A stretch of 64,000 bases of DNA from positions 1 to 64,000 of the IMG/VR virus record IMGVR_UViG_3300018476_000014. One strand, 5' to 3'. Of this stretch, positions 497 through 61,346 are shown piece after piece. Positions within the stretch are counted from its first letter, which is position 1, and every line of letters begins with the position of its first letter. The stretch is from a virus. A program made the translations under genes and the position numbers. The notes beneath the pieces are model-generated. The model was given only the letters and a program-made list of their open reading frames with translations, ran no database searches and was not told where the DNA came from.

Positions 497-513
497 GTCA
501 AACCGGGTTTAAC
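497..513. promoter_or_regulatory. GTTNAAC-family palindrome, site 1
   Basis: gtcaaaccgggtttaac: one mismatch from the consensus GTTNAAC-N3-GTTNAAC. It lies in the noncoding leader of the DNA polymerase gene. Confidence 0.6.
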
Positions 514-548
514 CCGATTTTCGAAATTTTCGGTTCGTCGAAAACCAA

Positions 549-567
549 CGTAACACTTTATGTTACG
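549..567. repeat. Short inverted repeat containing GTAACAC
   Basis: CGTAACA-CTTTA-TGTTACG with 7-bp arms. A closely similar element (GTAACACTTGACGTTAC, 19771-19787) lies in the divergent control region. Confidence 0.5.
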
Positions 568-578
568 AAACAAAGGTG

Positions 579-609
579 GGTGTTGAGTCAGGTCACCTGA
601 CTCAACACC
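579..609 (-). terminator. 31-bp perfect palindrome after the parB-like gene
   Basis: The 15-bp arms GGTGTTGAGTCAGGT and their exact complement flank a single C at 594, seven bases beyond the parB-like stop codon. On the minus strand the hairpin is followed by CACCTTTGTTTC, a modest T-rich tail. A terminator is likely; the perfect symmetry also fits a protein-binding site. Confidence 0.6.
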
Positions 610-1788: not shown

Positions 1789-2811
1789 TTAGCCCTGCTT
1801 GAGGGCGGCGTAGAGAGCAGGCAGTCGCAGAGAGACACTCTGCTTGCCGGCCTTCTTCGGTGCGGTGTCGGCGTAGGCTTGGAACGCTGCGTCCCAGTGC
1901 ATGGAGGCCGGATTGACCCCTTCCGCAGCGAGGACACCCGCAGCCTGCCAGATCAGCGGCTGAGCGCCACCGACGGCCTTCTGCGCAGAAGCCAGCGTAT
2001 AGAGGCTGCTGAGCATCGGCACGCAGTGACCGTTGATGGCGTTGGTGCCCGCCGTGTTGAGCACGTCGTACCAAGTCGTCGCACTCTTCTTCAGCGCGTC
2101 ATGCCCGGCTGCGTAGCCAGCGATGAAGGCCATCGACTGACCGAAAGCGGCGACCGTCTTCTTGTTCGCCACCTGCCCAGCCGAATTGAACTCGCCTTCG
2201 GCAACGCCCGCATTCTTGAGCGCTTCGCCAATGGCCACCGACATCGGACCGTCGATGTTCTTCACACCCAGTTTCGCCTCGCTGATAGGCTTGGCGTAAT
2301 GGTTGAAGTCGTGCAGCACCTTCATGGCGTGGTCTTCCGAGATGCCATGATGGATGGTGATGGCGAACGGCACGTCGCCGGTTTCCGGCCGCTCCGAGCG
2401 CAGGTCGAAGCGCGCTTGAAGCTGCGTCTCGCCATCGATGGCGATGGCTGGCGACGTATACGAGAACTCGATCTCCCGAGCGTTCTCGTCCACCTCACCG
2501 AGGTCAGGGATGAACAGCGTGACTGGCGGTGTGTCGCCCATCACGGTGCCGTCCATGAGCCGGCCGATATAGGTCTTGTAGAGACCCGCTCGTGTCACCC
2601 GCTGCTTGTCCCACAGCCGCTGCACGATCTGTCTCAGATGCTTGAACGGGATGTCCCGTTCCTCGAACTTCTTCTCGCCCGTCTTCGCCATGAAGAGTGG
2701 CGACTTGACCCCGAAATACTCAAGCTCGTTGAGCGTCACGGAGCCAACCGCTTTGTTCTCATCCACAGGGATAGCTGTAAGGGACTTGCCCTTCGCACGT
2801 GTAGGATTCAT
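1789..2811 (-). CDS. DGQHR / DndB-like domain protein
   Basis: 340 residues. The segment FSYTSPAIAIDGETQLQAR (116-134) corresponds to the DGQHR signature of the DndB/ParB-related superfamily. It is followed by a beta-strand and a region with FNHYAKPISEAKLG, typical of the downstream DndB-like pattern. Known relatives act as regulators or accessory proteins of phosphorothioate (Dnd) and related DNA modification systems, and phage copies are mostly uncharacterised. No dnd or deazaguanine modification genes are visible in the window. It sits directly upstream of the parB-like gene, separated by a hairpin. The assignment rests on motif recognition only; the glutamate-for-glutamine variant (DGETQ rather than DGQHR) adds uncertainty. 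Confidence 0.6.
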   Translation of the reverse strand: MNPTRAKGKSLTAIPVDENKAVGSVTLNELEYFGVKSPLFMAKTGEKKFEERDIPFKHLRQIVQRLWDKQRVTRAGLYKTYIGRLMDGTVMGDTPPVTLFIPDLGEVDENAREIEFSYTSPAIAIDGETQLQARFDLRSERPETGDVPFAITIHHGISEDHAMKVLHDFNHYAKPISEAKLGVKNIDGPMSVAIGEALKNAGVAEGEFNSAGQVANKKTVAAFGQSMAFIAGYAAGHDALKKSATTWYDVLNTAGTNAINGHCVPMLSSLYTLASAQKAVGGAQPLIWQAAGVLAAEGVNPASMHWDAAFQAYADTAPKKAGKQSVSLRLPALYAALKQG

Positions 2812-3028: not shown

Positions 3029-3045
3029 GTTAAACTAGGTTCAAC
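3029..3045. promoter_or_regulatory. GTTNAAC-family palindrome, site 2
   Basis: gttaaactaggttcaac, both half-sites perfect. It lies between the stop of the 3096-3353 gene and the terminator hairpin at 2991-3022. Confidence 0.65.
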
Positions 3046-7783: not shown

Positions 7784-8166
7784 GACGCCACCTTTATCGC
7801 TTTGAACTCTGGATGTTTCTGTTTCATGTGTCGGGCCAATTGGCTGAACGTCCGATGGCAGCACTGGCAGGTGCCAGCGGCTGATCGCTTCTGGAGGTTC
7901 GCCAGCTTGGCGGTCTCGGCATTGCGCTGGTTGCGGATGGCGACGATCTCGTCATCCTTCTCGGCAAGCTGCTGCTTCAGCCGGTCGCGCTCGCGGCGCA
8001 GCTTATCCTCGGTGTTATCAGTGTATCGAATGCTGTGCCCGTTGGGGCAGTACCAGTCACCGCCGCCGCTTTGCTTGCGCTCGAACAGCTTCTTGGGCGC
8101 TGCGTAGAGGATGTAGCAGCTCGGGCAGGTGCTCACTTCCAGTTCGGTCTCGGTCTTCACACTCAA
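7780..8166 (-). CDS. Zinc-finger phage protein with C2H2 end (128 aa)
   Basis: The N-terminal knuckle CPSC and the later YCPNGHSI form one metal site. A coiled coil follows (about 54-95, LRRERDRLKQQLAEKDDEI). A C2H2-like finger ends the protein (CQCCHRTFSQLARHMKQKHP). I recognise this architecture as a widespread uncharacterised phage/prophage family. It is coupled to neighbours by ATGA overlaps on both sides. Likely binds nucleic acid or protein. Confidence 0.7.
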   Translation of the reverse strand: MSVKTETELEVSTCPSCYILYAAPKKLFERKQSGGGDWYCPNGHSIRYTDNTEDKLRRERDRLKQQLAEKDDEIVAIRNQRNAETAKLANLQKRSAAGTCQCCHRTFSQLARHMKQKHPEFKAIKVAS

Positions 8167-8612
8167 CGCTTGTCCTCCTCGGTCAGTCCCTGCTCGTCGT
8201 AGATTTTGGCCGTCACGCCATCGCTGACGAACGGCCCGGCGACGCGGACCGTGTCCATCTGAGGGTCAGGACGGCTCTGGACCTTGGCGATCACGCGGAG
8301 CTTCTTCTGATACTCCTGCTCGCGCCTCTGCATCTCGCGTTCCAGCCAGTCTACCGAAGCGCCCTTCGGCACCAGTGACGGGCGCCAGTCAGTGTTGGGG
8401 ACCATGGCGCCGCGCACCGGCTCTCGCTCGTCAGCCAAGCGCTCACGCAGCACCCGGATCTCACGACGCAGCCGGCCCAGCTCTATCTCAGCTGAGCGCA
8501 GCTCGGACTCGGAGTCCGCGAGGTTGTCAGCCGCACCACGCAGCTCGGCACGCAGGCGGCTGTTGTCCAGCTCCAGCACGCGCACCAGTTCGTTCATCTC
8601 GAAGACGTTCAA
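8163..8612 (-). CDS. Coiled-coil protein, unknown (149 aa)
   Basis: Heptad-rich from residues 5 to 65 (VLELDNSRLRAELRGAADNL, ELGRLRREIRVLRERL), then a mixed C-terminal region. A TTG at 8612 overlaps the previous stop; an internal ATG at 8597 is a possible alternative. Its position between two zinc-finger/His-rich proteins in a coupled run suggests a shared complex, by inference only. Confidence 0.6.
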   Translation of the reverse strand: MNVFEMNELVRVLELDNSRLRAELRGAADNLADSESELRSAEIELGRLRREIRVLRERLADEREPVRGAMVPNTDWRPSLVPKGASVDWLEREMQRREQEYQKKLRVIAKVQSRPDPQMDTVRVAGPFVSDGVTAKIYDEQGLTEEDKR

Positions 8613-8827
8613 TGGACCGATCCCTCTATGCCGTGGAAGTCTTCAATGCCGGGTACGCCGTGCGCGATGTCGCCAGACTCGACGGCGCGGTTGACCGCGT
8701 CGTTGACGGCGTTGATCAGGCAGACGGCGCACAGATTGTAGTGATGAGAGAGCGCTTGCAGCTGCCCAACCAGTAAATTGCTCGCCAGGTGGAGCTTTTC
8801 TATTTCGTGTTCGTCGGGCAGGTGCAT
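8609..8827 (-). CDS. Unknown protein (72 aa)
   Basis: The ATG at 8827 is chosen because AAGGAG lies six bases upstream; an in-frame ATG five codons earlier overlaps that site. Helical sequence with HHYNLCAVCLINAVNDAVNRAVE. First gene of its run, downstream of the palindrome at 8881-8897. Confidence 0.6.
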   Translation of the reverse strand: MHLPDEHEIEKLHLASNLLVGQLQALSHHYNLCAVCLINAVNDAVNRAVESGDIAHGVPGIEDFHGIEGSVH

Positions 8828-8880
8828 GGCGTTCTCCTTCATAAAAAGCCGTTGGACCGGGATGTTAGCAAAGGGGCTTT

Positions 8881-8897
8881 GTTAAACCCGGTACAAC
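8881..8897. promoter_or_regulatory. GTTNAAC-family palindrome, site 3
   Basis: gttaaacccggtacaac, one mismatch in the right half. Between the stop at 8905 and the ribosome site of the 8609-8827 gene. Confidence 0.6.
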
Positions 8898-8904
8898 GGT
8901 AACC

Positions 8905-9288
8905 TTAGAGCTTAGCCCGCACGCTCTCGATGTGCTTGTGGATACGGATCGCCAGTCTGGCGAGGATCTCCGCGTCGGAACGCAGGCGCGGCAGCACTCC
9001 ACGCACCTCCCTCGTCAGTTCCTCGGGGTTGGATGGCTCGGTCTCGACCTCGCCCGCCAGTTCGCTGACTAGCTGGAGTAGCTCGCCCTCGACCTGCAAA
9101 AGCCCCTTCACTGCCGTGGCGAGCTGGTCGGAGGCACGCTCGGTGTCCAGCTTGTCCTTCATGGCGTGGTTGCTCCTGAGTTGGCGCACGCGCGAGTTGA
9201 TAGGCGCGAGCAATCCCTCGTTCGCCATGTCGTCCTTGAGCGCCCGGTCCAGGTCGGACTCGAGCGCTTTGTCTATTGGTTCGGCCAT
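8905..9288 (-). CDS. Helical protein, unknown (127 aa)
   Basis: Highly charged and helical throughout (LESDLDRALKDDMANEG, LLQLVSELAGEVE, ILARLAIRIHKHIESVRAKL), likely coiled coil. The start follows AAGAAAGAGAACAC, a variant of the common leader. Stand-alone gene followed by a palindrome. No family recognised. Confidence 0.65.
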   Translation of the reverse strand: MAEPIDKALESDLDRALKDDMANEGLLAPINSRVRQLRSNHAMKDKLDTERASDQLATAVKGLLQVEGELLQLVSELAGEVETEPSNPEELTREVRGVLPRLRSDAEILARLAIRIHKHIESVRAKL

Positions 9289-9349
9289 GTGTTCTCTTTC
9301 TTGTTACTAATTGTGTTACACGTAATGTGATTTGCCGTGCTTGGCAAGC

Positions 9350-9366
9350 GGGGGATTTAATCCCCC
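9350..9366 (-). terminator. Short G-rich hairpin at a stop codon
   Basis: GGGGGAT-TTA-ATCCCCC with 7-bp arms; the stop codon of the 9357-10016 gene lies within it. There is no strong U-tract, so at best a weak terminator or 3'-end stabiliser. Confidence 0.4.
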
Positions 9367-10016: not shown

Positions 10017-10052
10017 GTTCAGTCTCCGTTCGTGTGTTGGGGTTGAAAGAAA

Positions 10053-10505: not shown

Positions 10506-10546
10506 GGTTAGTCTCCTTCTCATTCGTGTGTTGGGGGTTGGTGTCA

Positions 10547-10563
10547 GTTGCACCGGGTTTAAC
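10547..10563. promoter_or_regulatory. GTTNAAC-family palindrome, site 4
   Basis: gttgcaccgggtttaac, one mismatch. It overlaps the stop codon of the 10559-10882 gene and lies in the leader of the MGLDMYL-type gene. Confidence 0.6.
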
Positions 10564-11892: not shown

Positions 11893-11914
11893 TTCATCCC
11901 CTCGGTTGATAGGC

Positions 11915-13276: not shown

Positions 13277-13288
13277 AGTCACCTCGTG

Positions 13289-13305
13289 GTTGAATGGGGT
13301 TTAAC
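13289..13305. promoter_or_regulatory. GTTNAAC-family palindrome, site 5
   Basis: gttgaatggggtttaac, one mismatch. It contains the stop codon of the 59-residue gene and lies 13 bases from the ribosome site of the VWA gene. Confidence 0.6.
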
Positions 13306-14589: not shown

Positions 14590-14612
14590 GTTAGTCACCT
14601 CATCGTGTGTTG

Positions 14613-14635
14613 GTGGGCTGCACCATGCAGCCCAC
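14613..14635 (-). terminator. Hairpin in the MoxR leader
   Basis: GTGGGCTGC-ACCAT-GCAGCCCAC, perfect 9-bp arms, adjacent to palindrome site 6. No U-tract. Could attenuate or separate expression of the ATPase from the upstream gene. Confidence 0.55.
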
Positions 14636-14652
14636 GTTGAACCCAGTTTAAC
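14636..14652. promoter_or_regulatory. GTTNAAC-family palindrome, site 6
   Basis: gttgaacccagtttaac, both half-sites perfect; directly after the stop codon of the DUF3150-like gene. Confidence 0.7.
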
Positions 14653-15632: not shown

Positions 15633-15649
15633 GTTAAACCTAGTCTAAT
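15633..15649. promoter_or_regulatory. GTTNAAC-family palindrome, site 7
   Basis: gttaaacctagtctaat; left half perfect, right half with two mismatches. In the leader of the DUF3150-like gene, 43 bases downstream of the putative promoter. Confidence 0.55.
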
Positions 15650-15690: not shown

Positions 15691-15717
15691 AAACAATGGC
15701 AGTTAAACAGGTTTAAC
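15691..15717 (-). promoter_or_regulatory. Putative leftward promoter with 16-bp palindrome (site 8)
   Basis: The palindrome gttaaacaggtttaac (15702-15717, two-base spacer) directly abuts a minus-strand CCATTGTT element. The same arrangement occurs at 18251-18276 and, degenerately, at 19661-19685, each about 85-115 bases before a leftward gene. This suggests a promoter with an operator over its spacer. The rightward gene at 15788 might also use this region. Confidence 0.5.
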
Positions 15718-16486: not shown

Positions 16487-16738
16487 TCACGTTAGACCCG
16501 GTTCAACCGGGAAGTCGCTGTCCTTGAGCACGCCATCCGGCATGGAGATGGCAAGGTCGACAGCGACCAGCATACGGGTCAGTACGCCGCGCAGCCCCTC
16601 CAGTGTGTCACTCTGGGTGAACGGCTCAGTGTAGCCGACGGGTTTACCGTCGTCCTCGCAGAACACCTCGAACACGCCATAAAGCGGCTCCTCTTCGTTG
16701 GGGAGCATGTTGACCACGCGATGCGTCCAGTAGCTCAT
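16487..16738 (-). CDS. Conserved small phage protein, unknown (83 aa)
   Basis: ATGA overlap with the upstream gene. Begins MSYWTHRVVNMLPNEEEPLY and contains FCEDDGKPVGYTEPF, a pattern I associate with a conserved unnamed phage family. Its last codons (VEPGLT) are written over palindrome site 9 (16491-16507), so the C-terminus may be shaped by the DNA element. Confidence 0.65.
   Translation of the reverse strand: MSYWTHRVVNMLPNEEEPLYGVFEVFCEDDGKPVGYTEPFTQSDTLEGLRGVLTRMLVAVDLAISMPDGVLKDSDFPVEPGLT
16491..16507. promoter_or_regulatory. GTTNAAC-family palindrome, site 9
   Basis: gttagacccggttcaac; right half perfect, left half one mismatch. Lies within the last codons of the 16487-16738 gene. 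Confidence 0.6.
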
Positions 16739-17532: not shown

Positions 17533-17551
17533 GTTGAGACACTAGTCTAAC
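17533..17551. promoter_or_regulatory. GTTNAAC-family palindrome, site 10 (degenerate, 19 bp)
   Basis: gttgagacactagtctaac: longer spacing and imperfect halves; overlaps the stop codon of the 17547-17792 gene. Confidence 0.45.
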
Positions 17552-17822: not shown

Positions 17823-17839
17823 GTTGAACAGGGTTTAAC
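17823..17839. promoter_or_regulatory. GTTNAAC-family palindrome, site 11
   Basis: gttgaacagggtttaac, both halves perfect. Contains the stop codon of the 17835-18167 gene and lies 20 bases upstream of the next leader. Confidence 0.7.
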
Positions 17840-18186: not shown

Positions 18187-18203
18187 GTTGAACTAGGTCT
18201 AAC
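18187..18203. promoter_or_regulatory. GTTNAAC-family palindrome, site 12
   Basis: gttgaactaggtctaac, one mismatch. Second (leader) site of the 18.2-kb promoter module. Confidence 0.65.
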
Positions 18204-18250: not shown

Positions 18251-18276
18251 AATAATGGTAGTTAAACAGGTTTAAC
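18251..18276 (-). promoter_or_regulatory. Putative leftward promoter with 16-bp palindrome (site 13)
   Basis: gttaaacaggtttaac (18261-18276), identical to the 15702 copy, next to minus-strand CCATTATT. A second palindrome follows 49 bases downstream, then the common leader and the 18167 start. Confidence 0.55.
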
Positions 18277-18519: not shown

Positions 18520-18562
18520 GGGTATCCATCCCCCTACGTAGTAGGGGGATGGAGTTATACCC
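18520..18562. repeat. Large hairpin
   Basis: Arms CCATCCCCCTAC (18526-18537) and its exact complement (18541-18552) with a 3-nt loop, extended by flanking GGGTAT and ATACCC. No T-tract on either side, so not an ordinary terminator. Confidence 0.6.
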
Positions 18563-18684
18563 TGTTCAACCATGGTATTTCGCGAAATGTCATGGCCGCA
18601 CATGTGCAGGTAGGTATTGTTGCCGGCACTAAGCATTTTAGCGTCCGATACACCTCCTTGCTGCTACCGCTGGTACGCTGCTGA

Positions 18685-19597: not shown

Positions 19598-19614
19598 GTT
19601 GAACCCGGTTTAAC
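19598..19614. promoter_or_regulatory. GTTNAAC-family palindrome, site 14
   Basis: gttgaacccggtttaac, both halves perfect, in the leader of the first leftward gene. Confidence 0.75.
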
Positions 19615-26883: not shown

Positions 26884-27879
26884 ATGGCATATCCTGTAGC
26901 AGGTGCGGGCACGACCCCACCCATCTATCCGACTGGCTCAGCAACACCCAATCCGGCTTACTCCGGTACCTTCATCCCCGTCCTGTGGTCGACCAAGCTT
27001 ATAGAGAAATTCTATGCATCGACCGTACTGGCGGCGATTTCCAACACCGACTACGAAGGCGAAATCAAGAACAAGGGCGACAAGGTCGAGATCCGGACCA
27101 AGCCCACGATCACCATCAAGGATTACAGAGCTGACGGCTTGCTCGAGATCGAGCGCCCGTCCTCGAACATTGTCGAGCTACCCATCGACAAGGGCAAATA
27201 CTTCAACCTCATCCTCGATGACGTCATGGAGATCCAGTCGGACCTCAACATGATGAACCTGTGGAGCGACGACGCTGCACAGCAGTTCAAGATCGTTGTC
27301 GACCGTGAAGTCCTGCTCGGCCTGCTCGGCCAGGCGGACACCAAGAACAAGGGCCTCACCGCGGGCCTGATCTCCAACAACATCAATCTCGGTGTTACCG
27401 GCACGCCGATCCAGGTTGTCGCTCGCAACCCTGCTGGCACCGCCGGCAAGGTCGAGATCATTGACATCCTGGTTCGCCTCGGGCAGGCGCTCGATGAGCA
27501 GAACATCCCCGAGACTGGACGTTGGGTCGTGCTTCCGGCCTGGATCTCATCGCAGATCAAGATGTCGGAGCTGCGGGACGCGTCGCTCACCGGTGACTCG
27601 GTGTCGATTCTGCGCAACGGGCGGCTGGGGATGGTTGATCGTTTCACCATCTACGTCAGCAATCTCCTGCCGTCCGGCGTCCCCGCCGGCCTCGCCGCTG
27701 GCGAGTGGGTGATCTACGCAGGTACCCAGCACGGGCTGACGTTTGCGTCGCAGATCAACAAGGTCGAGACACTGCGTTCCGAGATGACGTTCGGCACCCT
27801 GCTGCGTGGCCTTCAGGTCTACGGCTACAAGGTGCTCGACGGCAAAGCGCTTGCCCAGGCAATCGTCACTCCGGGTTGA
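26884..27879 (+). CDS. Major capsid (coat) protein, P22-like
   Basis: 331 residues. Recognisable signature of P22-type coat proteins: YSGTFIPVLWSTKLIEKFYA, TVLAAISNTDYEGEIKNKGD, VEIRTKPTITIKDY, and PIDKGKYFNLILDDV. Forms the icosahedral shell. Its stop codon lies inside palindrome site 15 and is followed by a strong hairpin, so late transcription is probably reduced after this highly needed gene. Confidence 0.9.
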   Translation: MAYPVAGAGTTPPIYPTGSATPNPAYSGTFIPVLWSTKLIEKFYASTVLAAISNTDYEGEIKNKGDKVEIRTKPTITIKDYRADGLLEIERPSSNIVELPIDKGKYFNLILDDVMEIQSDLNMMNLWSDDAAQQFKIVVDREVLLGLLGQADTKNKGLTAGLISNNINLGVTGTPIQVVARNPAGTAGKVEIIDILVRLGQALDEQNIPETGRWVVLPAWISSQIKMSELRDASLTGDSVSILRNGRLGMVDRFTIYVSNLLPSGVPAGLAAGEWVIYAGTQHGLTFASQINKVETLRSEMTFGTLLRGLQVYGYKVLDGKALAQAIVTPG

Positions 27880-27891
27880 ACCGGGTTTAAC
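27875..27891. promoter_or_regulatory. GTTNAAC-family palindrome, site 15, at the coat stop codon
   Basis: gttgaaccgggtttaac, both halves perfect, contains the coat TGA and abuts the terminator hairpin. Confidence 0.7.
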
Positions 27892-47677: not shown

Positions 47678-50600
47678 TGGAGCGGACCTACACCCCGCTC
47701 GATTATGAGCCCGAGGACTATGTCCCCGAGAGTGAACCAGTCATTGCCGAACCCGAAAAAGTTAAACCCAGTTCAACCGACCCGGCCCCGGCGACAGAGC
47801 CTCCTCCCGCTGCCGCCGAGCCGGCGCCCGCGGAGCCGGAGACATCCAGGCCCGCAGCTCCGCGGGCACGCAAGTACACGCCGATCGACTATGAACCGGA
47901 GCCGGCCGAAGACGGCTGGAGCAAGATCCCCAAAAACCCGATCGGCTCCGGTACCGCCATAGGCCGTGGCCTGATCGGCGGCACCATCGACGTCAAGCGC
48001 CAGCTGGGCGACGCCTATGAAGGCTTCAACGTCCTGCGCGGCAGCACCGAGCTGGACCTGTCTGAAGATCCGGTGACCGGCTACGAGCGAAGGGTCCCCT
48101 CGCTTGCCAACATCAAGGATGTCGACACCGGCCTGACCTGGCTGGGTGAGACACTCGGCTCTGCGATTCCACAGTTCGCCCCGACCATCGCCACGGCTGC
48201 CGTCGGGACTGGCATCGGTGGGCTGACTGCACCGGTGACTGGTCCCGCTGGCGCCTTCGCCGGTCGCGCCGCCGGCGGTCTCGCCGGCTCGATCATCCAG
48301 AACTTCGGCGACGTGTGGGGCGGCTTCAAGCAGGACGCGGGGATTCGCAAGCTGCTCGATGACAAGCAGGTCGAGCCGATGTTCCTGGCGCAGAGCGCGC
48401 TCGCTGCGTCCGCGCTGATCGGCACGCTGGACGCTGTGTCGCTGGGCAAGATCACCAACAAGCTCGGACTCTCCAAGGAACTCTCCCCGGACGAGCTGGC
48501 GCTGGAAATCGCCAAGAAGTGGACGATCGCATCGATCGCCAAGCGCGGCGGCAAGGGTATGGCCTGGGAAGGTATCACCGAGGCGGCGCAATCGATGATC
48601 GCCCAGGCTGCCGAGATCGGTATCGGCGGCAACTGGGACATGACCAACCGGGTGGTCCGCCTGTTCGATGAGTTCGCCGGCGGCGCTGTCCAGGGTGGCC
48701 CGGCAGCTGCGCTGAGCCCGCCGGCAGACCCAAAGAACAATGACCTCGAGGTGCCGCCCAAGCCGGACGACCAGCCCGGCGAGGCCGCGCCCGTGCTCCC
48801 CGAGGGGACACCGGCCCCGGTTGAGGCAGCGCCGGCAGCTGAGCAGGCTACCCCCGGCGGCCTCAGCGCGACGACGCCTGCCCCACCTGCCGGCCTCGAC
48901 AAGCAGCCGGCCGAGGCTGAACCAGCCCCGGTGCCCGAGGCAGCTACCGATCCAGGCACGCTTGCGAAACCACCCGCACCTGTTCTTCCCGAGCCGGGCT
49001 CTCCTGTCACGGTGGTCGGTCAGGGGGAGACGGCGCCTGACGTTGCTGAGGCCCTGCCCACAAGGCCAGCAGCTCAGGCGCCGGCTGAAGACGAAGGCAT
49101 CACCGAGGGAGCGATCCCGGCCGAGCAGGAAGAAGCCGGCAGCCCGTTCATGCGCCAGATGCTGGCGCGTCATGCGCAGCAACAGGACGCCAGCGTCGCT
49201 GCAGCGCTGCAGGAATCGCTTCCCGCTGCTCCAGAGCAAGCCGCTGTCCAGCCGCCGGTGATTCCGCCGGCCCCTCAGCCAGAGGTGTTAGGCACAGCCG
49301 GGGCAAGGTGGAGGCAGGATGCACCTGCCGATGCTACACTAGCTGCGCCGTCTCCTGCTGTGAGCGGGGAGGCGGTCACCCCGGAGAACGCCCTACCCGC
49401 CGCGGCCTCCGAGGTGTCGCAGGAGCAGGTACCCTCTCCGCCGATCGAACCTGCTCCTGCACCTCAACCCGATGTTTCCCTGGAGCCGACCGATCAGGGC
49501 GTCATCCCGGTCGCACCTGCCGAGAAGACACCGACCTATACCCCGGTCGGCTACGATCCGGAACCGTTCACCCCCGAGGATTTCGAAGCAGAGGCGGCAG
49601 CGGAGCCCGCTGAGAGCGATGAGGACGTTCCGGCTGTCACTGAGCCGGCAGAGGAAGAACTCGCGCCAGCGGCCGCCTACGTGGCAGGGGAGTACGTCCC
49701 GCCGAAGAAGAAACCCGAGACCGTGGTGGTCAAGAAGCGGGGTAAGCCGGCACCGAAGGAGGAGGTTAAACCTAGTTCAACTGAGGGAGCCACCCCCACA
49801 AAGACCGGCTCGACGTTAACCAAGGCGCAGCGCGAACTCCATGACGAGGTAACACGAGCGGTTCCTCCCGACCTGGAGACCCACCCGCATGGCAAAGCTG
49901 CAATCGAGGAAGCTGTTCGCGAGCATAAGTCCCCTGTCCGCCCACGCGAAGAAGCGCATCGTAAGGCCCAGGTGGAGCAAACTCTGGAGGCGGCCCGAAA
50001 GCACGCCAAGCGCCGGCTCGATGAAGAGGTGGCAGCTGTTGGCTCACAAGCTCAACAGGAACTTGATCGTGCAAAGAGTCTGGCCCGCGAGCGTGAGACG
50101 AAGGGCAAGCCCCAAGAACGCAAGCGTCGAGGAAAAACCAAAGGCAAGGCGGCGGAGGATGTCGCCATCCAAAGCCCGAAGCGCTGGAATGAATCTGTGG
50201 AGGCCGAACGCGCGAAGCCGGCCGAGGAACAGAACCAGGACCTGATCGAATACGGGGCGTTCCGCGACGCCCGCAACAAGCTCGGCGCCCGAGACCCGAA
50301 GCGTGCCAGCCTCAACAAGGAGATGGACAAGGCCAAGGAGCGCTACCTCGAAGGGCAGCGCCAGGCGGAGGAAGCCAGGAAGCCAGCCCCGGCACCGGTG
50401 CCCGAGACGCCTGCCGAAGCGCCGGCGCTGACCCAGGAAGAGCAGGAAGCGATCCTGCAATCCAAGAACAAAGAGGCCGAGAAGCAACGCGCCCAGCAGG
50501 CAGCGGCGCGGCGTGAGAAGACCGGGACACTGCTCGAACCCGCGGTCGATGCCGTCGCCATACCCGACGAGTTCTACCAGCCGGCTGGCGCCAAGGTGGC

Positions 50601-53600: not shown

Positions 53601-54990
53601 CCTGGGCGTCCACAGGACCGTGGTGCGCGGGGTATGGGAGACAGGGCGTGAAGCGGTGCACGCCTTCCACAAGATCCCGATCGAGCAGTACAACCACCAC
53701 GAGGACGCCAAGAAAAAGATCCTCCGCGCCGAGCCGGCCGCCAAAGGTGGCGTCGATCTCCTCGAGCAGATGGGACTCTCTGCATCGGGCGGCATCGAGG
53801 CGCCCGAAGTCAGCGAGATGAACAAGAACTGGGGGTCCGTCCGGCTCACCCGCACGGTGCGGGCGGCGCGCGCCGCCCCGGAATCCGCCGAGGCGGTCAA
53901 CCGCTACACGACGTTTCTCGCAGCCTGGCGGCTGGCCAGGCAGGACGGCATGTCGATCGCCGAGGCGGACGAGTATGCCGTGTCGATGGTCGAGAAGACG
54001 CAAGGCGGATACGCCAGTGAAAACAACCCGTCTTTCCTGTCAGGAAAATGGCTGGCCTTCCCGCTGCAGTTCAAGAAGTACCCGCTGATGTACGGGCAGA
54101 TGTATTACGGCGCAGTGATGCGCACGCTCGGCCCGAACCCATCCAAGGCCGACCGCTGGGAGGCAGCAAAGCAGACCGCGTATCTCTCGGCCACCACCAT
54201 GGCGTTCGCCGGCGTCGGCGGCCTGCCCTTCATCGAGTTCGGCCGCGCCTTCGCGCTGGCAGCCCTGGCGATCGGTGGCGATGAAGAGCCATGGAAGTGG
54301 GACGACTACGAGAACGCCATGGAGGAATGGTTTGCCGACATGACCAAGTTCGCGCTCGGCAAGCACTCGGCCATGGCCGCCGAGGCGCTGGTCTATGGCG
54401 CCACCCGGTTCCTTGGCATCGACACCTCGTCGCGCATGGGCAACTCGTCGTCTGTGCTCTTCGGCGAGCCCAAGAAGAGCGACGAGATGGGGGTCAAGGC
54501 ATGGCTGTTCGAGCTGACCGGCGGTGCCGGGCTCGACACCATCGGCGACACCATCCAGGCGTTCCAGGGCGACATCTCCAAGCTGCCGATGCCGAAGGCC
54601 TTCCAGGACATCTACAAGGCCTACACCAAGAGCCAGGAGGGCACCGTCACCAAGACCGGCCGGCAGGTCGGCAAGGAGTTCACCACTGCCGAAGCGGTCG
54701 CTCAAGGGCTGGGCTTCAGGCCGCGCAAGGACGTCCGGTCCTACGAGGCCGGTGGCTCCGGCACGAAGAACCGCGAGGAACAGCGGGCGAGTCGCGATCG
54801 CACCAACCTGATGGGCGAGTGGGCGAAGGCCGACTCGTGGCATCGCCCGGCCGTGTGGACCAAGAAGATCATGAAGTGGAACCGCGAGCACCCCGATCAG
54901 AAGATCACCCGTGCCTCGCTGCAGAAGTCGCTGAACCGGCGCAAGCAGCAGGCCAAGGAGGACAAGAAGATGCGTGAGGAGCAGGACTGA
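47677..54990 (+). CDS. Giant virion protein with HEMTH metallopeptidase motif (2437 aa)
   Basis: The largest gene. N-terminal and middle repeats YTPLDYEPEDY, YTPIDYEPEPA and YTPVGYDPEPF, hydrophobic Ala/Gly segment near 170-210, then 400 residues of Pro/Ala/Glu-rich low complexity. A zincin motif HTLMHEMTHAA (H1232, E1233, H1236) lies mid-protein. The C-terminal third has an all-helical, membrane-compatible part (LDLSFLTHLASPAYTIVNLM). Probably an internal ejection protein injected with DNA. Two palindrome sites (47761, 49765) lie in its coding sequence. Confidence 0.75.
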   Translation: MERTYTPLDYEPEDYVPESEPVIAEPEKVKPSSTDPAPATEPPPAAAEPAPAEPETSRPAAPRARKYTPIDYEPEPAEDGWSKIPKNPIGSGTAIGRGLIGGTIDVKRQLGDAYEGFNVLRGSTELDLSEDPVTGYERRVPSLANIKDVDTGLTWLGETLGSAIPQFAPTIATAAVGTGIGGLTAPVTGPAGAFAGRAAGGLAGSIIQNFGDVWGGFKQDAGIRKLLDDKQVEPMFLAQSALAASALIGTLDAVSLGKITNKLGLSKELSPDELALEIAKKWTIASIAKRGGKGMAWEGITEAAQSMIAQAAEIGIGGNWDMTNRVVRLFDEFAGGAVQGGPAAALSPPADPKNNDLEVPPKPDDQPGEAAPVLPEGTPAPVEAAPAAEQATPGGLSATTPAPPAGLDKQPAEAEPAPVPEAATDPGTLAKPPAPVLPEPGSPVTVVGQGETAPDVAEALPTRPAAQAPAEDEGITEGAIPAEQEEAGSPFMRQMLARHAQQQDASVAAALQESLPAAPEQAAVQPPVIPPAPQPEVLGTAGARWRQDAPADATLAAPSPAVSGEAVTPENALPAAASEVSQEQVPSPPIEPAPAPQPDVSLEPTDQGVIPVAPAEKTPTYTPVGYDPEPFTPEDFEAEAAAEPAESDEDVPAVTEPAEEELAPAAAYVAGEYVPPKKKPETVVVKKRGKPAPKEEVKPSSTEGATPTKTGSTLTKAQRELHDEVTRAVPPDLETHPHGKAAIEEAVREHKSPVRPREEAHRKAQVEQTLEAARKHAKRRLDEEVAAVGSQAQQELDRAKSLARERETKGKPQERKRRGKTKGKAAEDVAIQSPKRWNESVEAERAKPAEEQNQDLIEYGAFRDARNKLGARDPKRASLNKEMDKAKERYLEGQRQAEEARKPAPAPVPETPAEAPALTQEEQEAILQSKNKEAEKQRAQQAAARREKTGTLLEPAVDAVAIPDEFYQPAGAKVAFRKSVQMFDREMRAVIKQFRDAVRDALKDAKLDPMAAKPAEFQSPEEWLGIFANQILHGELKGEFEGMENTMFATALTLYRAGDIDGLWEQISGTKRLASKSGDVQRYHKRKAGTVLEREEKAEPTDQALIVKNKWFKAGHRVEPLQTLTGAEALTRAGKVKMDSSFTSPFAWVRKMHSKALRQMVGDTPVHIISREDMDRIANKPSDSNSQVAGLFMPYGASRSPSKILSGKDQPAIFIAADSAADPHNFAHTLMHEMTHAATSYALHHDIRGMGRIIRTMRTMLEAELRISGAWEHLDPELHTYGFTNDAEFVAEAFSNPNFQNMLMHFEVSPELAATIGSFTGGKPRMTWWQAFTKAVSNALGILVPRGDSYFEQILKLQPDLMMTSAEIFEDRLAKNPTLGQIFSKPFAKTQLNAAEPLILQSVNHSFDATRQAVEDKWYSLNARTIKNRLATTYEQMRRSDYWFGTGADNKFRPVGRLLLSARNIRNKLANPGRLLVRKQLELKIKDRPEYDRLSENIHEATLLGMDPQISLADNITAGNVSKAGDLDAYKRAAFPELKKAYDALKPATQQIYADTVRHHKDQENTRRTELTKNALAKVVDFWSLTLPTSQKQAVEDIMEGLLDADPATITDPVKQARATALRQALGKHADSLGNVAEMRSVKGVYVPLMRWGKYVITATQQVKAPPGGTIDPQNPNQILFDDKAAYKAYVNANQDQIDRVGSEWWDPVTGKRTQKKASVAHTPGGPLTYPVQVFRVHVMNRLVEMDDSEGKLARRREDLVSKGFQVTQVVMTDKEMARGGDLMPSHITKIMNAMDASGTSTIGKTAFQHALQDAYVRTLMNSRAQHRRLKRQGIQGFNRDLVNATNNANHIMSGHIANLQLQPQLDKASKELNEWVKQEEKNDYGVASNRKHIERQAMVKELYQRIEHMQTRNEDHWGQHALRNVLDLSFLTHLASPAYTIVNLMQTVVTSLPVLGAAHGMFRTGREMARAAKDLGVHRTVVRGVWETGREAVHAFHKIPIEQYNHHEDAKKKILRAEPAAKGGVDLLEQMGLSASGGIEAPEVSEMNKNWGSVRLTRTVRAARAAPESAEAVNRYTTFLAAWRLARQDGMSIAEADEYAVSMVEKTQGGYASENNPSFLSGKWLAFPLQFKKYPLMYGQMYYGAVMRTLGPNPSKADRWEAAKQTAYLSATTMAFAGVGGLPFIEFGRAFALAALAIGGDEEPWKWDDYENAMEEWFADMTKFALGKHSAMAAEALVYGATRFLGIDTSSRMGNSSSVLFGEPKKSDEMGVKAWLFELTGGAGLDTIGDTIQAFQGDISKLPMPKAFQDIYKAYTKSQEGTVTKTGRQVGKEFTTAEAVAQGLGFRPRKDVRSYEAGGSGTKNREEQRASRDRTNLMGEWAKADSWHRPAVWTKKIMKWNREHPDQKITRASLQKSLNRRKQQAKEDKKMREEQD
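47761..47777. promoter_or_regulatory. GTTNAAC-family palindrome, site 16, inside the giant virion gene
   Basis: gttaaacccagttcaac encodes VKPSST in frame with codons atypical for the gene. Confidence 0.6.
49765..49781. promoter_or_regulatory. GTTNAAC-family palindrome, site 17, inside the giant virion gene
   Basis: gttaaacctagttcaac encodes VKPSST again, 2004 bases after site 16 and in the same frame. Confidence 0.6.
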
Positions 54991-58007: not shown

Positions 58008-58022
58008 CAACCGAGCATACCC

Positions 58023-58229
58023 ATGAGCGCCAGTGAAGAAGCAGCGAAGGCCGCCACTAGTGCTATCGATGCCATGCGGACGAACCCGTCCTGCCTGGCA
58101 GCACTCATGCTGGCGGCAATGTTTTCAATGCTCAGCTACTACAACAACCAGCGAGACGACGAGCAGAGATCAAGGACTCTCGATATCCTGATGAAGAGCT
58201 GTTTCAAACCTGATGGGGGACCGCACTGA
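58023..58229 (+). CDS. Holin-like membrane protein (68 aa)
   Basis: One hydrophobic segment (SCLAALMLAAMFSMLSYY, about 23-40) with charged C-terminus, directly after the endolysin. A holin or spanin-like role is inferred from position and topology. Ends in a TGATG-style overlap with the next gene. Confidence 0.55.
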   Translation: MSASEEAAKAATSAIDAMRTNPSCLAALMLAAMFSMLSYYNNQRDDEQRSRTLDILMKSCFKPDGGPH

Positions 58230-58471
58230 TGGCCAAGAGAGTTCGCGACTACAAGCACGAGTACGCGATCTACCACGGCAAGCCAGAGAAGATCAAAGAG
58301 CGCGCCGAGCGCGTTCAGGCGCGCCGGGATGTCGTCAAGGACAAGGGGGCTGCAGCGGTGGCGGGCAAGGATGTCCACCACAAGAAGGCGATCCGGCACG
58401 GCGGTGGCAACGGCAAGGGGAACCTCGCCATCACCTCGACTAAACACCGTGGCTGGAACCGTGGAAGTTAG
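58229..58471 (+). CDS. HNH-like basic protein (80 aa)
   Basis: Basic: RDYKHEYAIYHGKPEKIKER, then KDVHHKKAIRHGGGNGKGNL. Fits a known small phage family with DHKNGN / NGxxNL that resembles an HNH nuclease core. Here HHKK replaces the usual DHK, so activity is doubtful. Its last 32 bases overlap the end of the primase gene (convergent). Confidence 0.6.
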   Translation: MAKRVRDYKHEYAIYHGKPEKIKERAERVQARRDVVKDKGAAAVAGKDVHHKKAIRHGGGNGKGNLAITSTKHRGWNRGS

Positions 58472-61346
58472 GCAGCGGTGTCATGTCGTAGCACTCGGAG
58501 CGGCCTGACCCGACGGTGGTCAGCCCATCCAGCATTGCCACGCCAGCCCCGATCGCTCCCTTACCCTGGCTGACCAGATAATACTTACCGAGCATCTTGC
58601 GCACCTGCTCAGGCTGGTGCCGGCGCTTCCTGAGCCAGTGATTGAACTGCTTGCAGCGCACCCGGATACGTTTGTCCTTCTGCCCGACCTGCATCCACAC
58701 ATCCTGCAGGCGGGAGAGGTCGGTATCGATCAGCTCGACCGGGCTGGGTCTGCCCATGCCGTAGTTGATGCGATCTGTCATGATGAGGTTCTTGCCGCGC
58801 AGGTCGTCCATCATGTCCTGAAGGAGCGAGAGCACAGAGTCGGGCGCGGCGAGCGTCGTGTGCTCCTGGCTCTTCAGCGTCGAGCGCTGACGCGACAGCA
58901 TCTCATCGAGCGAGGTTTCCATCTGCTTCACGTTGAACCCGGTTAAACCCATGTGATTACCCACCTGGGCACCGGCCAGCAGCGTCGACATGGTGATGGC
59001 CCAGAAGCGCTCCTTCTGCGAGAACCCATGCCGTTTCATGAGGAGATCGGTCTGCGTGTCGAGGAGCTTCTGGATCGACGCCTTGTTCAAGGAAATGAAC
59101 TGCGCGTACTGGGCACCGGCGACGCCGTAGTTCTGCGTCACGTCACGCAGGAGCTGCCTCGCCTGCCAGTCGCTGAAGGTCAGGGTGTGCGAGGGGACTT
59201 CGATCTCGAACACCCTGAGACCGCCGGCTTCCGTGCCGTCGGTATTGGCATAGACCGTGTCGGCAATGCCGTAGTTGGACGCCACTGCGAACATAGTGGT
59301 GAAGGCGTGCGTCGCCTGCTGGGTGGCGTCGCGGTTGAGCCGCGACTTGCCCTTGCCCTGAGTGACTTGGAAGACCAGGTCGATAACCTTCTCCAGCTGG
59401 TCGGCTGTCCTCAGTTCGTCCCAGTAGATCGGCAGGTTCTTAAGATCGCCGATCTTCTTCATCACCGAGTTCAGCGTGTCGCCAAGCGCGCTCATGCCGG
59501 TGCGCGGGTCACCCCACACGGCCTGTGCAATCATCATCGCTGTCGTTTTACCGACACCGCTGGCCGATGAATATGCGCTGAGCACCACGGAGGATGGCCC
59601 GGCGATCTCGACCAGCGGCGCGGCAAACGCTGATGCCACGAGGATCTCCAGCGCCGGGTTGCCATAGACCAGCTTGGCTGCCTCCTGCCATGGTTTCAGT
59701 TCACCGTGGGCGACGAAGCGTTTGTCGTGGCTGGGACCGTGGAAGCATGGCTGCGAGCCGGTCGGCAGGTAGGTATGTTCATCGTAGGTGAACCCCTTCC
59801 CATCCTTGGTCCAGCCATAGCTGACCGGGGTAACGAGCTTCTTGATCTCCTGCAGTTTCGTCATCCAGGCCACAAGAAAATCCCTCGCGTGTTTGTGGTT
59901 CACCGGCTTGATGTAGACGCCACCCCCTGCGGCCATCGCTTGCGCAGCCGGCACAGGCGTCATGTTGTTGGCGATCGGAGCACTCCCCCAATGCTCGATG
60001 CCGCTGTGTCTGGTCAGAAAAGCCAGCTGCCCCGTCGTCGGGTCGATGCCGGCATCAAGTATCGGATAACCCAGCACGTCTATGGTCTTGGCCGAGCCGT
60101 CCTTTTCCTGGACCACGGTTGTGACATGGTTGTTGATGTCGCGGTAGTAACCGTGCGGCATCAAGGGGTCCTGGCCCTGCGGCGCGGCACCCGGTGCAGC
60201 CGCTGGCTGCGGGCGCACCGCGAAGTTGAACGGCGACTTGTGCTGGGCAAACCACGGGCACTGCGCGCACGCTGAGTGCAGCGGCGAGAAGGAGTCGCAC
60301 TTAGGCCAGCCGATGGCAGGGTTCGCAGCCCGCGCGTTGAGCTTCTCGATCAGCTTCTTCTCGGTGCCGTCATGGGTATAGCGGTGGTCACCCTTGGAGA
60401 GCCGGTGCGCCGAGTCGTGTGGATCATCGGTGAACGAAGCAGCGAGGATCGCCAGGTTCCACAGGGGCTCGGGGTCACCGTCGCCCTCGCGCTCGAGGAT
60501 ATCGGCCAGCGCCGGGCAGCCCTGTGCCAGTCCGTCGAGCGGCACCGGTGGTGCTTCGCCCACGCCCTCGGTGAAGTTCTGGGTGAAGCTCGACTGCGTC
60601 CGGCTCATGCGCACGCCGGCAGTCGGGCCGACATAGGAGCCCAGTGCACTGACTAACTCTTGGTATTGGTAGACCTTGAAGGAGGAGTCTTCGAGCAGCT
60701 TGACGGTGCCGGGCGGCACCGACTTGTGGTTCAGCGTGCCGGGCACGCGAAGGATTCCGGCAGCGTTCACGGTCACCTGCGGATCGAACTTCAGGCCATA
60801 GGCAAGCGCTGCGTCGCGCAGGCCCTTAGCCAAGGGTGTCCACGCATTGACCGGCATCGGCTCGTCGGTGTTCCAGTAGACGTGCAGGCCACCCGATCCG
60901 GAGAGCACCTCCATGGTGGCTTCCGGCAGGCCTACCTTCTCGCAGAAGTCATCGAGCGCAGCGTAGGCATCCTCGGTCGTGCCGTAGGCGCCCGCCTTGC
61001 CGACGTCGATGTCGAGATAGATCGAGCGGAACGAGACGACGTTGGAGATTTGTCTTACGGCACGCGGGTAGCCATCGGCGGAGAACTTATCCAGCGAGGC
61101 CATGCGCTGGGTACCGAGCGCCATGTAGACATTGGCACCGGCGCGTCCGGCACGTGATTCAACCAGCTGGATCAGCTTGTCATAATCTTGCGCGGCGTAG
61201 TTGGCGAACGCGATCCGGCCTTCCTGTGTGGTGAAGGTCCAGGTGACAGATTTCCACAACTGCTGGTGCTCGGTGTCCCACGGATAATTAAGGTTGAGGA
61301 AGATCTCGAGCGCCGGGTTTTGACCTCGTGGCATAGCGGCATCCAT
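58440..61346 (-). CDS. Primase-helicase (AEP primase plus DUF927-like helicase)
   Basis: 968 residues. N-terminal archaeo-eukaryotic primase/PrimPol features: LDID (111-114) catalytic acids, SGSGGLHVYW (149-158), and LRVPGTLNHK. A Cys/His cluster follows (about 349-367, HSACAQCPWF). The C-terminal part has Walker A SASGVGKTT (about 595-603) and LPIYWDELR (about 637-645) as in DUF927-like helicases. Makes primers and unwinds at the phage fork. Contains palindrome site 18 in its coding sequence. Start at the first ATG; the ribosome site is weak. Confidence 0.82.
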   Translation of the reverse strand: MDAAMPRGQNPALEIFLNLNYPWDTEHQQLWKSVTWTFTTQEGRIAFANYAAQDYDKLIQLVESRAGRAGANVYMALGTQRMASLDKFSADGYPRAVRQISNVVSFRSIYLDIDVGKAGAYGTTEDAYAALDDFCEKVGLPEATMEVLSGSGGLHVYWNTDEPMPVNAWTPLAKGLRDAALAYGLKFDPQVTVNAAGILRVPGTLNHKSVPPGTVKLLEDSSFKVYQYQELVSALGSYVGPTAGVRMSRTQSSFTQNFTEGVGEAPPVPLDGLAQGCPALADILEREGDGDPEPLWNLAILAASFTDDPHDSAHRLSKGDHRYTHDGTEKKLIEKLNARAANPAIGWPKCDSFSPLHSACAQCPWFAQHKSPFNFAVRPQPAAAPGAAPQGQDPLMPHGYYRDINNHVTTVVQEKDGSAKTIDVLGYPILDAGIDPTTGQLAFLTRHSGIEHWGSAPIANNMTPVPAAQAMAAGGGVYIKPVNHKHARDFLVAWMTKLQEIKKLVTPVSYGWTKDGKGFTYDEHTYLPTGSQPCFHGPSHDKRFVAHGELKPWQEAAKLVYGNPALEILVASAFAAPLVEIAGPSSVVLSAYSSASGVGKTTAMMIAQAVWGDPRTGMSALGDTLNSVMKKIGDLKNLPIYWDELRTADQLEKVIDLVFQVTQGKGKSRLNRDATQQATHAFTTMFAVASNYGIADTVYANTDGTEAGGLRVFEIEVPSHTLTFSDWQARQLLRDVTQNYGVAGAQYAQFISLNKASIQKLLDTQTDLLMKRHGFSQKERFWAITMSTLLAGAQVGNHMGLTGFNVKQMETSLDEMLSRQRSTLKSQEHTTLAAPDSVLSLLQDMMDDLRGKNLIMTDRINYGMGRPSPVELIDTDLSRLQDVWMQVGQKDKRIRVRCKQFNHWLRKRRHQPEQVRKMLGKYYLVSQGKGAIGAGVAMLDGLTTVGSGRSECYDMTPLPNFHGSSHGV
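58932..58948. promoter_or_regulatory. GTTNAAC-family palindrome, site 18, inside the primase gene
   Basis: gttgaacccggttaaac, both halves perfect. It encodes LTGFN on the minus strand with the rare codon TTA. Confidence 0.6.

Follow-up and report, generated by a model that had tools for sequence, protein, structure and literature searches.

Dispersed palindromes as putative operators, and a candidate repressor family, in a phage and its relatives

A family of near-identical palindromes is dispersed over a 64,000-nucleotide stretch of viral DNA (the window; positions 1 to 64,000 of the 67,551-bp IMG/VR record IMGVR_UViG_3300018476_000014), and many related phages carry sites of the same kind with other sequences. 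The explanation that we regard as fairly probable is stoperator-like immunity, in which these would be the dispersed palindromic operators of a phage-encoded regulator, with an unannotated protein family, here called family X, as a new candidate repressor family. A reading made from the letters of the window, without database searches (the sequence-only reading), had likewise proposed a dispersed, palindromic, stoperator-like operator set; the set is supported by the relatives, by the co-occurrence of family X and by the integrated prophage of one relative, but the binders proposed there, a ParB-like and an RHH protein, are not supported as general binders.

Few systems of immunity through dispersed operators have been studied in detail, most of them in actinobacterial phages. 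An apparently independent version, palindromic and denser, occurs in phages whose hosts are Rhizobium, Bradyrhizobium or uncultured; several operator classes can be read from sequence in it, and the candidate repressor is described by no family model tried. These phages would provide naturally occurring pairs of repressor and operator in several variants, in which one residue is predicted to set specificity; for laboratory work there are RHph_TM phages that infect Rhizobium, and a Bradyrhizobium lysogen.

The palindrome family in the window

The family exists in the window. All 15 seventeen-base sites named in the sequence-only reading lie at their coordinates, each with at most two mismatches to GTTNAAC-N3-GTTNAAC; together with one overlooked there (18554-18570) they make 16 strong 17-bp sites, which with two 16-bp forms of identical sequence bear out the estimate of about 18 copies (Table 1). 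The overlaps with stop codons noted at 10547, 13289, 17533, 17823 and 27875 agree with our gene predictions. What had been called a 19-bp form at 17533 is there as sequence, but it is degenerate, is absent from the weight-matrix matches and is doubtful. A further site, GTTAAACCCGGTCTAAC, is found at 65077 of the same record, outside the window.

At up to two mismatches the window has 19 matches, far above the mean of 0.78 (sd 0.91, maximum 5) in 100 dinucleotide-preserving shuffles. Three of the 19 are excluded from the site count: 10557 and 17813 overlap other sites, and 59777 is chance-like. In a weight-matrix search the sites score 20.4-28.7 bits against 10.4 for the next best position, a separation that is partly circular, as the matrix is derived from the same 16 sites. 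The sites are pseudo-symmetric, with GTTA.. in one half and GTTG.. in the other in 13 of 16 (binomial P about 0.005). A collection-wide search with the window consensus gave 62 stretches with one site apiece, which is chance-like.

Counting the 16 sites, the two 16-bp forms and 17533, 15 of 19 are non-coding, although non-coding DNA makes up only about 6% of the window, and 11 of 19 stand at most 100 bp before the start of a predicted gene; those at 16491, 47761, 49765 and 58932 are inside genes.

Table 1. Putative operators and the candidate repressor gene (window coordinates)
Feature	Sequence	Position	Strand	Context
Site	GTCAAACCGGGTTTAAC	497..513		non-coding gap 228-615, about 270 bp upstream of polA start (227, -)
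Site	GTTAAACTAGGTTCAAC	3029..3045		upstream of gene 1789-2811(-)
Site	GTTAAACCCGGTACAAC	8881..8897		upstream of gene 8609-8827(-)
Site	GTTGCACCGGGTTTAAC	10547..10563		upstream of 10053-10505(-); overlaps stop of 10559-10882(-)
Site	GTTGAATGGGGTTTAAC	13289..13305		12 bp before start of VWA-like gene 11915-13276(-); overlaps stop of 13301-13456(-)
Site	GTTGAACCCAGTTTAAC	14636..14652		upstream of 13477-14589(-), ATPase-like (BLAST match to annotated ATPase gene of RHph_TM3_14A)
Site	GTTAAACCTAGTCTAAT	15633..15649		upstream of 14653-15576(-)
16-bp site	GTTAAACAGGTTTAAC	15702..15717		between divergent genes 14653-15576(-) and 15788-16339(+)
Site	GTTAGACCCGGTTCAAC	16491..16507		intragenic, 3' end of gene 16487-16738(-)
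Doubtful degenerate 19-bp form	GTTGAGACACTAGTCTAAC	17533..17551		upstream of 17274-17510(-); sequence only
Site	GTTGAACAGGGTTTAAC	17823..17839		upstream of 17547-17792(-); overlaps stop of 17835-18167(-)
Site	GTTGAACTAGGTCTAAC	18187..18203		19 bp before start of 17835-18167(-)
16-bp site	GTTAAACAGGTTTAAC	18261..18276		non-coding region 18168-18790
Site	GTTATACCCTGTTCAAC	18554..18570		non-coding
Family X gene, candidate repressor, 261 aa		18791..19576	-	found by iterative HMM; unannotated
Site	GTTGAACCCGGTTTAAC	19598..19614		family X leader; ends 21 bp before family X start codon
Site	GTTGAACCGGGTTTAAC	27875..27891		overlaps capsid stop
Site	GTTAAACCCAGTTCAAC	47761..47777		intragenic, ORF 47677-54990(+)
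Site	GTTAAACCTAGTTCAAC	49765..49781		intragenic, ORF 47677-54990(+)
Site	GTTGAACCCGGTTAAAC	58932..58948		intragenic, DUF927 gene 58440-61334(-)

Sites in related phages and the family X protein

De novo palindrome scans with controls found a dispersed palindrome of its own in 11 of the 17 related records scanned. GTTACCT-N3/4-AGGTAAC and TTACGCC-N3-GGCGTAA are among these palindromes. Site numbers reach 59 in RHph_TM3_14A and, at a looser threshold, 67 in both G026 and G032; RHph_TM3_14A and others are covered along the genome by some 60 sites, roughly one per kb. Spacing is more even than random in RHph_TM3_14A, G026 and G032, is marginally so in G022, and is not so in the window, G017, G025, G027 and G024. 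The mismatch threshold in this spacing and count scan was 2 for RHph_TM3_14A and 3 for G026, G032, G027, G024 and the window, which at that threshold has 34 matches against 11 for the control. Site families are weak in G020, G008 and G006, and mismatch-tolerant scans of G001 gave no palindrome set distinguishable from background. Negatives of the exact-arm scan mean little, because it also misses the window's own set, whose two halves differ. One of the de novo scans of relatives covered loci of 7 kb or more and shorter ones with family X; a plasmid collection gave 11 records, every capsid at less than 60% identity.

Absence of the sites from relatives would have spoken against the family. The exact sequence is indeed mostly absent (the window motif exceeds 13 bits in only 2 of 81 related loci), but diverged sites of the same kind occur in many relatives. 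At the capsid stop, where the window has the site at 27875, relative L011 has a site of this kind too. Phages with 91% identical capsids carry different palindromes and 28% identical family X proteins. Judged from the genomes compared, what is conserved is the system, not the sequence.

The sequence-only reading saw no CI-like repressor; the repressor that it did not see is probably the window member of family X, in which no CI or HTH signature is recognisable. Iterative HMM searches find the family in 15 of 18 records; of the other three, two are fragments from which this part of the genome is missing, and the third, G001, covers it. In RHph_TM3_14A the family X gene has the locus tag EVB41_028. 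The window protein joins the family distantly (E=0.012 in round one of the HMM search, included only after iteration), though a reverse-seeded search converges too. A single-protein scan of 84,980 GTDB species genomes returned no family X, but such a scan is insensitive, since a profile search found the family in two of those genomes.

Family X diverges rapidly, and it tracks the palindromes in presence and, largely, in specificity class, as far as the compared genomes can tell. It is the only non-tail family that is present in all six near-complete genomes and missing from G001, in a test seeded from RHph_TM3_14A genes (those of up to 1100 aa with one BLAST hit or more; families of at least four members), so that genes absent from RHph_TM3_14A fall outside it as rivals. 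In 24 of 30 loci the 200 bp before the family X gene contain a palindrome with at most two mismatches; in these loci 0.01-0.33 of same-locus 200-bp windows, drawn from the whole locus and not from gene leaders alone, match as well. The six other loci have no good upstream site, L201 and L203 perhaps through wrong starts. Clades of the family X tree largely follow operator type, and GTTACTC operators are found in both main clades. At the alignment column of window residue 115, K is present in 23 of 23 GTTAC members and I, T or E in 6 of 6 others, the column having been picked after the alignment was viewed. It is the one column of 219 that separates the operator classes, and 0 of 5000 random sets of six gave such a column; phylogeny is roughly controlled by hand-made clade sets, and the operator labels for tree and column are hand-assigned, partly on weak site sets (G020/L174, L208, G008/L172, G006/L188 and L028).

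The AF2 model of the window member of family X is all-helical, with a mean pLDDT of 82.9. For this protein there is no convincing Pfam, PHROG or NCBIfam match, and Pfam searches with 14 members gave no HTH family and a single HLH match (E=0.011, one member). The family profile against PDB sequences reaches a best E of 0.041, Foldseek searches of PDB with two models have best E-values of 4.7 and 1.9, and the best VIA-align Z scores of 5.8 and 6.1 are at the generic helical-bundle level; a BFVD search gave two significant matches, both without assigned function. Weak rows to sigma factors and to Stl and TetR regulators appear in the fold searches.

At least one related phage with such palindromes is an integrated prophage: in Bradyrhizobium sp. 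139 it carries a serine recombinase and is flanked by a 17-bp att duplication. The N4 operator pattern has 20 matches in the 7.9-Mb genome of this strain, 19 of them within the prophage; the reversed control pattern gives 18 matches, so the evidence lies in where the 20 fall and not in how many there are. Among 13 further records a tyrosine integrase is present in four (G036, one of the four, is apparently identical in sequence to a second Bradyrhizobium contig), and PF00239 in none. Integrase searches in six records were negative and would have suggested lytic phages, a reading corrected by the prophage and by the integrases of the further records. The window phage itself may form lysogens, but searches with two Pfam integrase families found no integrase in it.

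Putative operators and the rival readings

A family X dimer would bind the palindrome and, from sites in leaders, would repress its own promoter and early promoters, the site at 19598 being the proposed point of autoregulation. Intragenic and gene-end sites may block stray transcription, as proposed for L5-type stoperators, and the protein would keep the prophage silent and confer superinfection immunity with a specificity that varies by lineage. Sites of the window phage, concentrated on leaders of leftward genes, would be operator-like; the arrays of RHph_TM3_14A and others would be roadblock-like, and in RHph_TM3_14A, unlike for classical operators, 41 of 59 sites are intragenic and 18 are non-coding. 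More tentatively, family X may be a new repressor class with a DNA-binding architecture not represented in PDB, silencing the prophage through palindromes spaced by about 1 kb over genes as well as promoters, with one-base spacing tolerance and fast turnover of specificity.

The palindromes look like DNA operators rather than hairpins or terminators. Their frequency at gene ends would suit RNA-level signals (intercistronic hairpins, processing sites or intrinsic terminators), as would the post-capsid hairpins of L014, L020, L024 and L028, which hold similar palindromes within longer stems; but this very improbable reading is largely refuted, as the six bases of flank have no excess of complementarity in eight genomes and T5 runs within 15 nt accompany 0 of 59, 0 of 67 and 1 of 67 sites in three, observations on which a terminator or hairpin identity was dropped. 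In addition, where the two halves of a window site carry A and G at position 4, as they usually do, the RNA from one strand would contain an A.C mismatch; site orientation relative to genes is mixed in the window. Sigma-70 and terminator scans of 8000-20200 gave no excess, and Rfam and tRNA searches no matches. If the same operators had some other binder, encoded by the phage or supplied by the host, family X would be a conserved regulated or accessory gene of the module. That is unlikely in our view, even though no DNA-binding domain is recognised in family X, many small RHph_TM3_14A genes lack relatives among the compared records, and the window encodes more possible regulators, RHH-like at 19883-20167 (so labelled by eye; no family model matched) and ParB-like at 616-1701: among families seeded from RHph_TM3_14A genes, no non-tail family but X tracks the six genomes against G001, its column covaries with operator class, and the relatives differ in site class, which argues against a shared host factor. 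As general binders the two proteins were dropped. Among seven records ParB_N is found only in the window phage, and five of the other six (all but G001) have dispersed palindromes; searches with the single ParB-like protein found no relative in 20 records or in viral_contigs candidates, which alone shows little. Of 17 other records, four have a BLAST match to the RHH protein, and G001, with no detectable palindrome set, is one of the four.

The ParB-like gene of the window, the many intragenic sites, the fairly regular placement of sites, about 1 kb apart, in RHph_TM3_14A, G026 and G032, and the dispersed parS sites of N15/PY54-type prophages are also what partition or genome-organisation sites (parS-like or nucleoid-like), meant for segregation or compaction and not repression, would predict. 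We consider this improbable, given that ParB_N is absent from all six other records tested, that the window sites show no even spacing and are concentrated in leaders, and that the family X leader so often holds a site. Phages that use the host regulator CtrA (PMC9437464) are a precedent, in the literature cited, for sites of a host global regulator collected by phages; this reading is disfavoured, and hardly probable, as nearly all matches to the N4 operator pattern in the Bradyrhizobium genome sit in the prophage and the palindromes differ between phages with 91% identical capsids.

Relation to known dispersed-operator systems

Cluster A mycobacteriophages (L5 gp71, Bxb1 gp69) are described as temperate; their sites are dispersed by the dozen, frequently where genes end, one of them sits at a key promoter, and the consensus changes together with a recognition-helix residue across immunity groups (PMC3029335, PMC5712189); at L5 stoperators the repressor is reported to bind as a monomer (PMC4557955). 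The stoperator-like set described here shares with L5 and Bxb1 the dispersed near-identical sites, 18 in the window without the doubtful form and 59-67 in relatives. It differs in that the sites are palindromes of 16-18 bp, whereas those of L5 and Bxb1 are 13-bp, asymmetric and mostly in one orientation, in that some genomes have about 60 copies, often intragenic, and in that no HTH is recognised in the candidate repressor.

Other phages able to persist in their host cells have dispersed sites too, namely the C1 operators of phage P1 and parS of N15 and PY54. P1 C1 sites are asymmetric, unlike the palindromes here, and N15 and PY54 use ParB-type proteins, unlike the relatives tested for ParB_N. 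The repressor sites of Streptomyces phage phiC31 are palindromic, about 17-bp and intergenic; palindromic operators dispersed over the genome would be common to both, and phage type, host and site sequence differ. Multiple repressor sites across the phiC31 genome are described in PMC4557955.

In the Bacillus prophage SPbeta, MrpR maintains lysogeny by binding a repeated element, SPBRE, at many promoters; it has a tyrosine-recombinase fold and gave ten prominent ChAP-seq peaks (PMC10516654). Unlike MrpR, the two family X models have no tyrosine recombinase among their listed fold matches, which is no proof of its absence. What the two systems would have in common is one phage protein, with family X as the candidate, acting through one repeated element at many promoters.

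Dispersed palindromes in the window and in related phages

The sequence-only reading had described some 18 dispersed palindromes of the form GTTNAAC-N3-GTTNAAC. The check confirmed both the family and its coordinates: the window, which covers 64,000 of the 67,551 bases of the phage record, holds 19 matches with at most two mismatches, compared to 0.78 expected in shuffled sequences. Sixteen sites score 20.4-28.7 bits by a weight matrix made from those same 16 sites, and all other positions score 10.4 bits or less. Non-coding DNA, about 6% of the window by our own gene calls, contains 15 of 19 sites (these 16, two 16-bp forms and a doubtful 19-bp form), and 11 of the 19 have a predicted gene start no more than 100 bp downstream. 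The sites tend to be pseudo-symmetric, with GTTA in one half and GTTG in the other in 13 of 16; half-site spacings are 2 and 3, and those in the related Rhizobium phage RHph_TM3_14A are 3 and 4.

Several other features were seen nearby. The motif ACTCTCTTTCGTG is common to the leaders of three leftward genes, between start codon and operator. AATGGYA, extended to AATAATGGYA in two cases, immediately precedes two 16-bp sites and one degenerate site, and may be part of rightward promoters. The perfect inverted repeat CTCTGTCACCTCAAGTGACAGAG, separate from the palindrome family, lies upstream of an RHH-like gene and is perhaps its own operator. The record is apparently circularly permuted, as polA runs off its end, with the N-terminus (start at 227, minus strand) at the beginning of the window.

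Palindromic sites and neighbouring features of the phage record
Feature	Position	Remark
16-bp form	15702	identical to form at 18261
16-bp form	18261	identical to form at 15702
19-bp form	17533	doubtful
Sites within genes (n=4)	16491, 47761, 49765, 58932	
Site outside window	65077	same record
Non-coding stretch	228-615	contains site 497
Motif in leftward-gene leaders	17800-17812, 18175-18187, 19584-19596	
AATGGYA copies	15695-15701, 18251-18260, 19660-19669	
Inverted repeat	19791-19813	
RHH-like gene	19883-20167	
ParB-like gene	616-1701	
Family X gene	18791-19576 (-)	261 aa

Relatives were sampled as at least 80 loci encoding capsid relatives. Many of them share the kind of element, and few its exact sequence: of 81 loci scanned with the window matrix, two gave matches above 13 bits, namely L011, where the match sits at the capsid stop, like a window site, and L012, which carries variants like GTTATACCGGGTATAAC. 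A different dispersed palindrome was found in 11 of 17 other records by a de novo search for exact arms, which also misses the window's own set because its halves differ. The palindromes are of GTTACC type in RHph_TM3_14A, G026, G032, G022, G017, G025, G029 and G030, and take the forms TTACGCCCNGGGCGTAA in G027, TCACGCCCNGGGCGTGA in G024 and GTTATTC-N3-GAATAAC in G013. This search gave no convincing set in G001, G006, G008, G020 and G033, and an ambiguous one in G028. RHph_TM3_14A has 59 sites at up to two mismatches (reversed-arm control, 2); at up to three mismatches there are 67 sites in G026 (control, 6), 67 in G032 (10), 35 in G027 (4), 51 in G024 (13) and 34 in the window (11). Compared with random placement, the sites are more regularly spaced in RHph_TM3_14A (CV 0.63 vs 0.98, sd 0.12), G026 (0.69 vs 0.98, sd 0.10) and G032 (0.69 vs 0.97, sd 0.11), marginally so in G022 (0.68 vs 0.94, sd 0.16), and not so in the window (CV 1.13), G017, G025, G027 and G024.

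The six bases flanking the sites show no excess complementarity in eight genomes, and a T5 run occurs within 15 nt of 0/59, 0/67 and 1/67 sites in three genomes; judging from sequence, the sites would act as DNA, rather than RNA, elements. Separately, the relative contig L048 has four copies of TTACAACGTTGTAA, with family X (see below) absent from the stretch examined, and RHph_TM3_14A (L150 15431-37725) has numerous small proteins, paralogues of one another, that carry a motif resembling AMLLG..Y.

Family X, a candidate repressor

No CI-like repressor had been visible in the sequence-only reading. The candidate proposed here belongs to an all-helical protein family, family X. Four rounds of HMM search, starting from RHph_TM3_14A 18372-19100 together with its BLAST relatives, yielded one main member each for 15 of the 18 records, the window among them; the window protein was a late entrant (E=0.012, round 1), a second, weaker match in G027 (E=0.0014) was also drawn in, and reverse seeding from the window side converged on the same family. 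It is absent from G029 and G033, which by BLAST maps are fragments without the region, and from G001, which spans the interval from the ATPase-like gene to the terminase and has a capsid 93% identical to that of the window. In a tolerant palindrome scan, G001 shows no set above the GC-rich background of other control contigs (log10 P from -4.9 to -11.3 for G001 and seven controls; -36 for the window and -98 for G026). Some records with family X did no better than controls (L172, L174, L188, L189, L204, L208, L018, L028, L182). When presence and absence were compared starting from RHph_TM3_14A genes, family X and five tail-module families were the ones that all six near-complete genomes have and G001 lacks; by gene order, the tail families fall past the G001 contig end.

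Further scans gave 21 and 2 loci with family X, most with palindromes of their own. A site within two mismatches of the same genome's arms lies at most 200 bp upstream of family X, often 33-44 bp from its start, in 24 of 30 loci, a set that includes near-duplicates and for which control windows extend beyond gene leaders; L186, L201, L203, L157, L188 and L028 have no such site.

Operator specificity appears to track the family X protein. In the maximum likelihood tree, where several long branches are unsurely placed, one clade (support 99/98) unites L018 (GTTACTC) with the members whose operators are GTTRAAC, GTTATAC and GTTATTC, a second (100/100) is made up of the TTACGCC/TCACGCC pair, and the remainder consists of GTTACC members and L028 (GTTACTC). 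One of 219 alignment columns separates the operator classes perfectly: it is Lys in 23/23 GTTAC-operator members, the distant L018 and L028 included, and I, I, I, T, E and E in the six others. The column test was devised after the alignment had been inspected; such a column arose in 0 of 5000 random six-member sets and in none of 31 other hand-made clade combinations.

The window protein (mean pLDDT 82.9) and the L190 protein (88.2) are helical in AlphaFold2 models. Family X models and profile had no significant match in PDB, and two BFVD proteins match, neither with assigned function. The best Pfam hit (E=0.011, in one of 14 members) and the best PHROG hit (E=0.013) are unconvincing, and NCBIfam gave none for four members. 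The fold, therefore, does not show how family X would bind DNA.

Related phages in Bradyrhizobium

A capsid query against sequenced bacterial genomes gave 43 loci; the closest two are from Bradyrhizobium genomes, both of which encode family X. The phage is integrated in the genome of Bradyrhizobium sp. 139: contig G035:C111 carries host glyS and its neighbours, then late phage genes, and G035:C166 starts with family X and early genes, followed by a large serine recombinase and host genes. At the unoccupied locus of the other Bradyrhizobium genome, the flanks align at 89% (1,227 bp) and 87% (800 bp) and overlap by 17 bp, with the identical 17 bases at both prophage junctions, a duplication of the kind expected from an att core. 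This putative core (L269 5192-5208, L281 5054-5070) includes the operator half-site GTTACCT. Of 20 matches to GTTACCT-N4-AGGTAAC (at most two mismatches) in this 7.9-Mb genome, 19 fall in the prophage; the reversed pattern also gives 18 matches, so that placement, not number, counts. With N3 and N4 patterns combined, the two prophage contigs have 9 and 14 sites, and the host flanks examined have none.

In the second Bradyrhizobium genome, the phage sits on a contig of its own (60,568 bp), which encodes a tyrosine integrase close to one of its ends. Four of 13 additional records, one apparently the same sequence as that contig, have such an integrase, and the search found none in the window phage, RHph_TM3_14A, G024, G026, G027 and G032. 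The ParB-like gene is present in the window phage and absent from six relatives tested; it may hint at plasmid-like maintenance and, speculatively, would fit an extrachromosomal prophage.

Proposed mechanism and known systems

In the proposed mechanism, family X acts as the immunity repressor. At leader sites, it would shut off early genes and its own gene, as suggested by site position and co-occurrence; at sites within genes, it would block stray transcription, a roadblock role proposed by analogy with stoperators, for which the same role has been proposed (PMC3029335). Leader sites prevail in the window phage; in RHph_TM3_14A, 41 of 59 sites are inside genes.

RHph_TM3_14A is unmentioned in the open-licence literature searched, and rhizobial phages are not the topic of the open-licence papers found to mention both stoperators and prophages, as judged by titles and abstract openings. 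In cluster A mycobacteriophage repressors, a recognition-helix residue changes with stoperator position 2 (PMC3029335), which parallels the covariation of a family X residue with site sequence. The palindromes are symmetric, in contrast to the asymmetric sites of L5, and the searches brought up no related repressor, so the system would fall outside the L5 type. The likeness to L5 and phiC31 (PMC4557955) and to SPbeta (PMC10516654), in all of which dispersed repressor sites are known, is in the same way of working.
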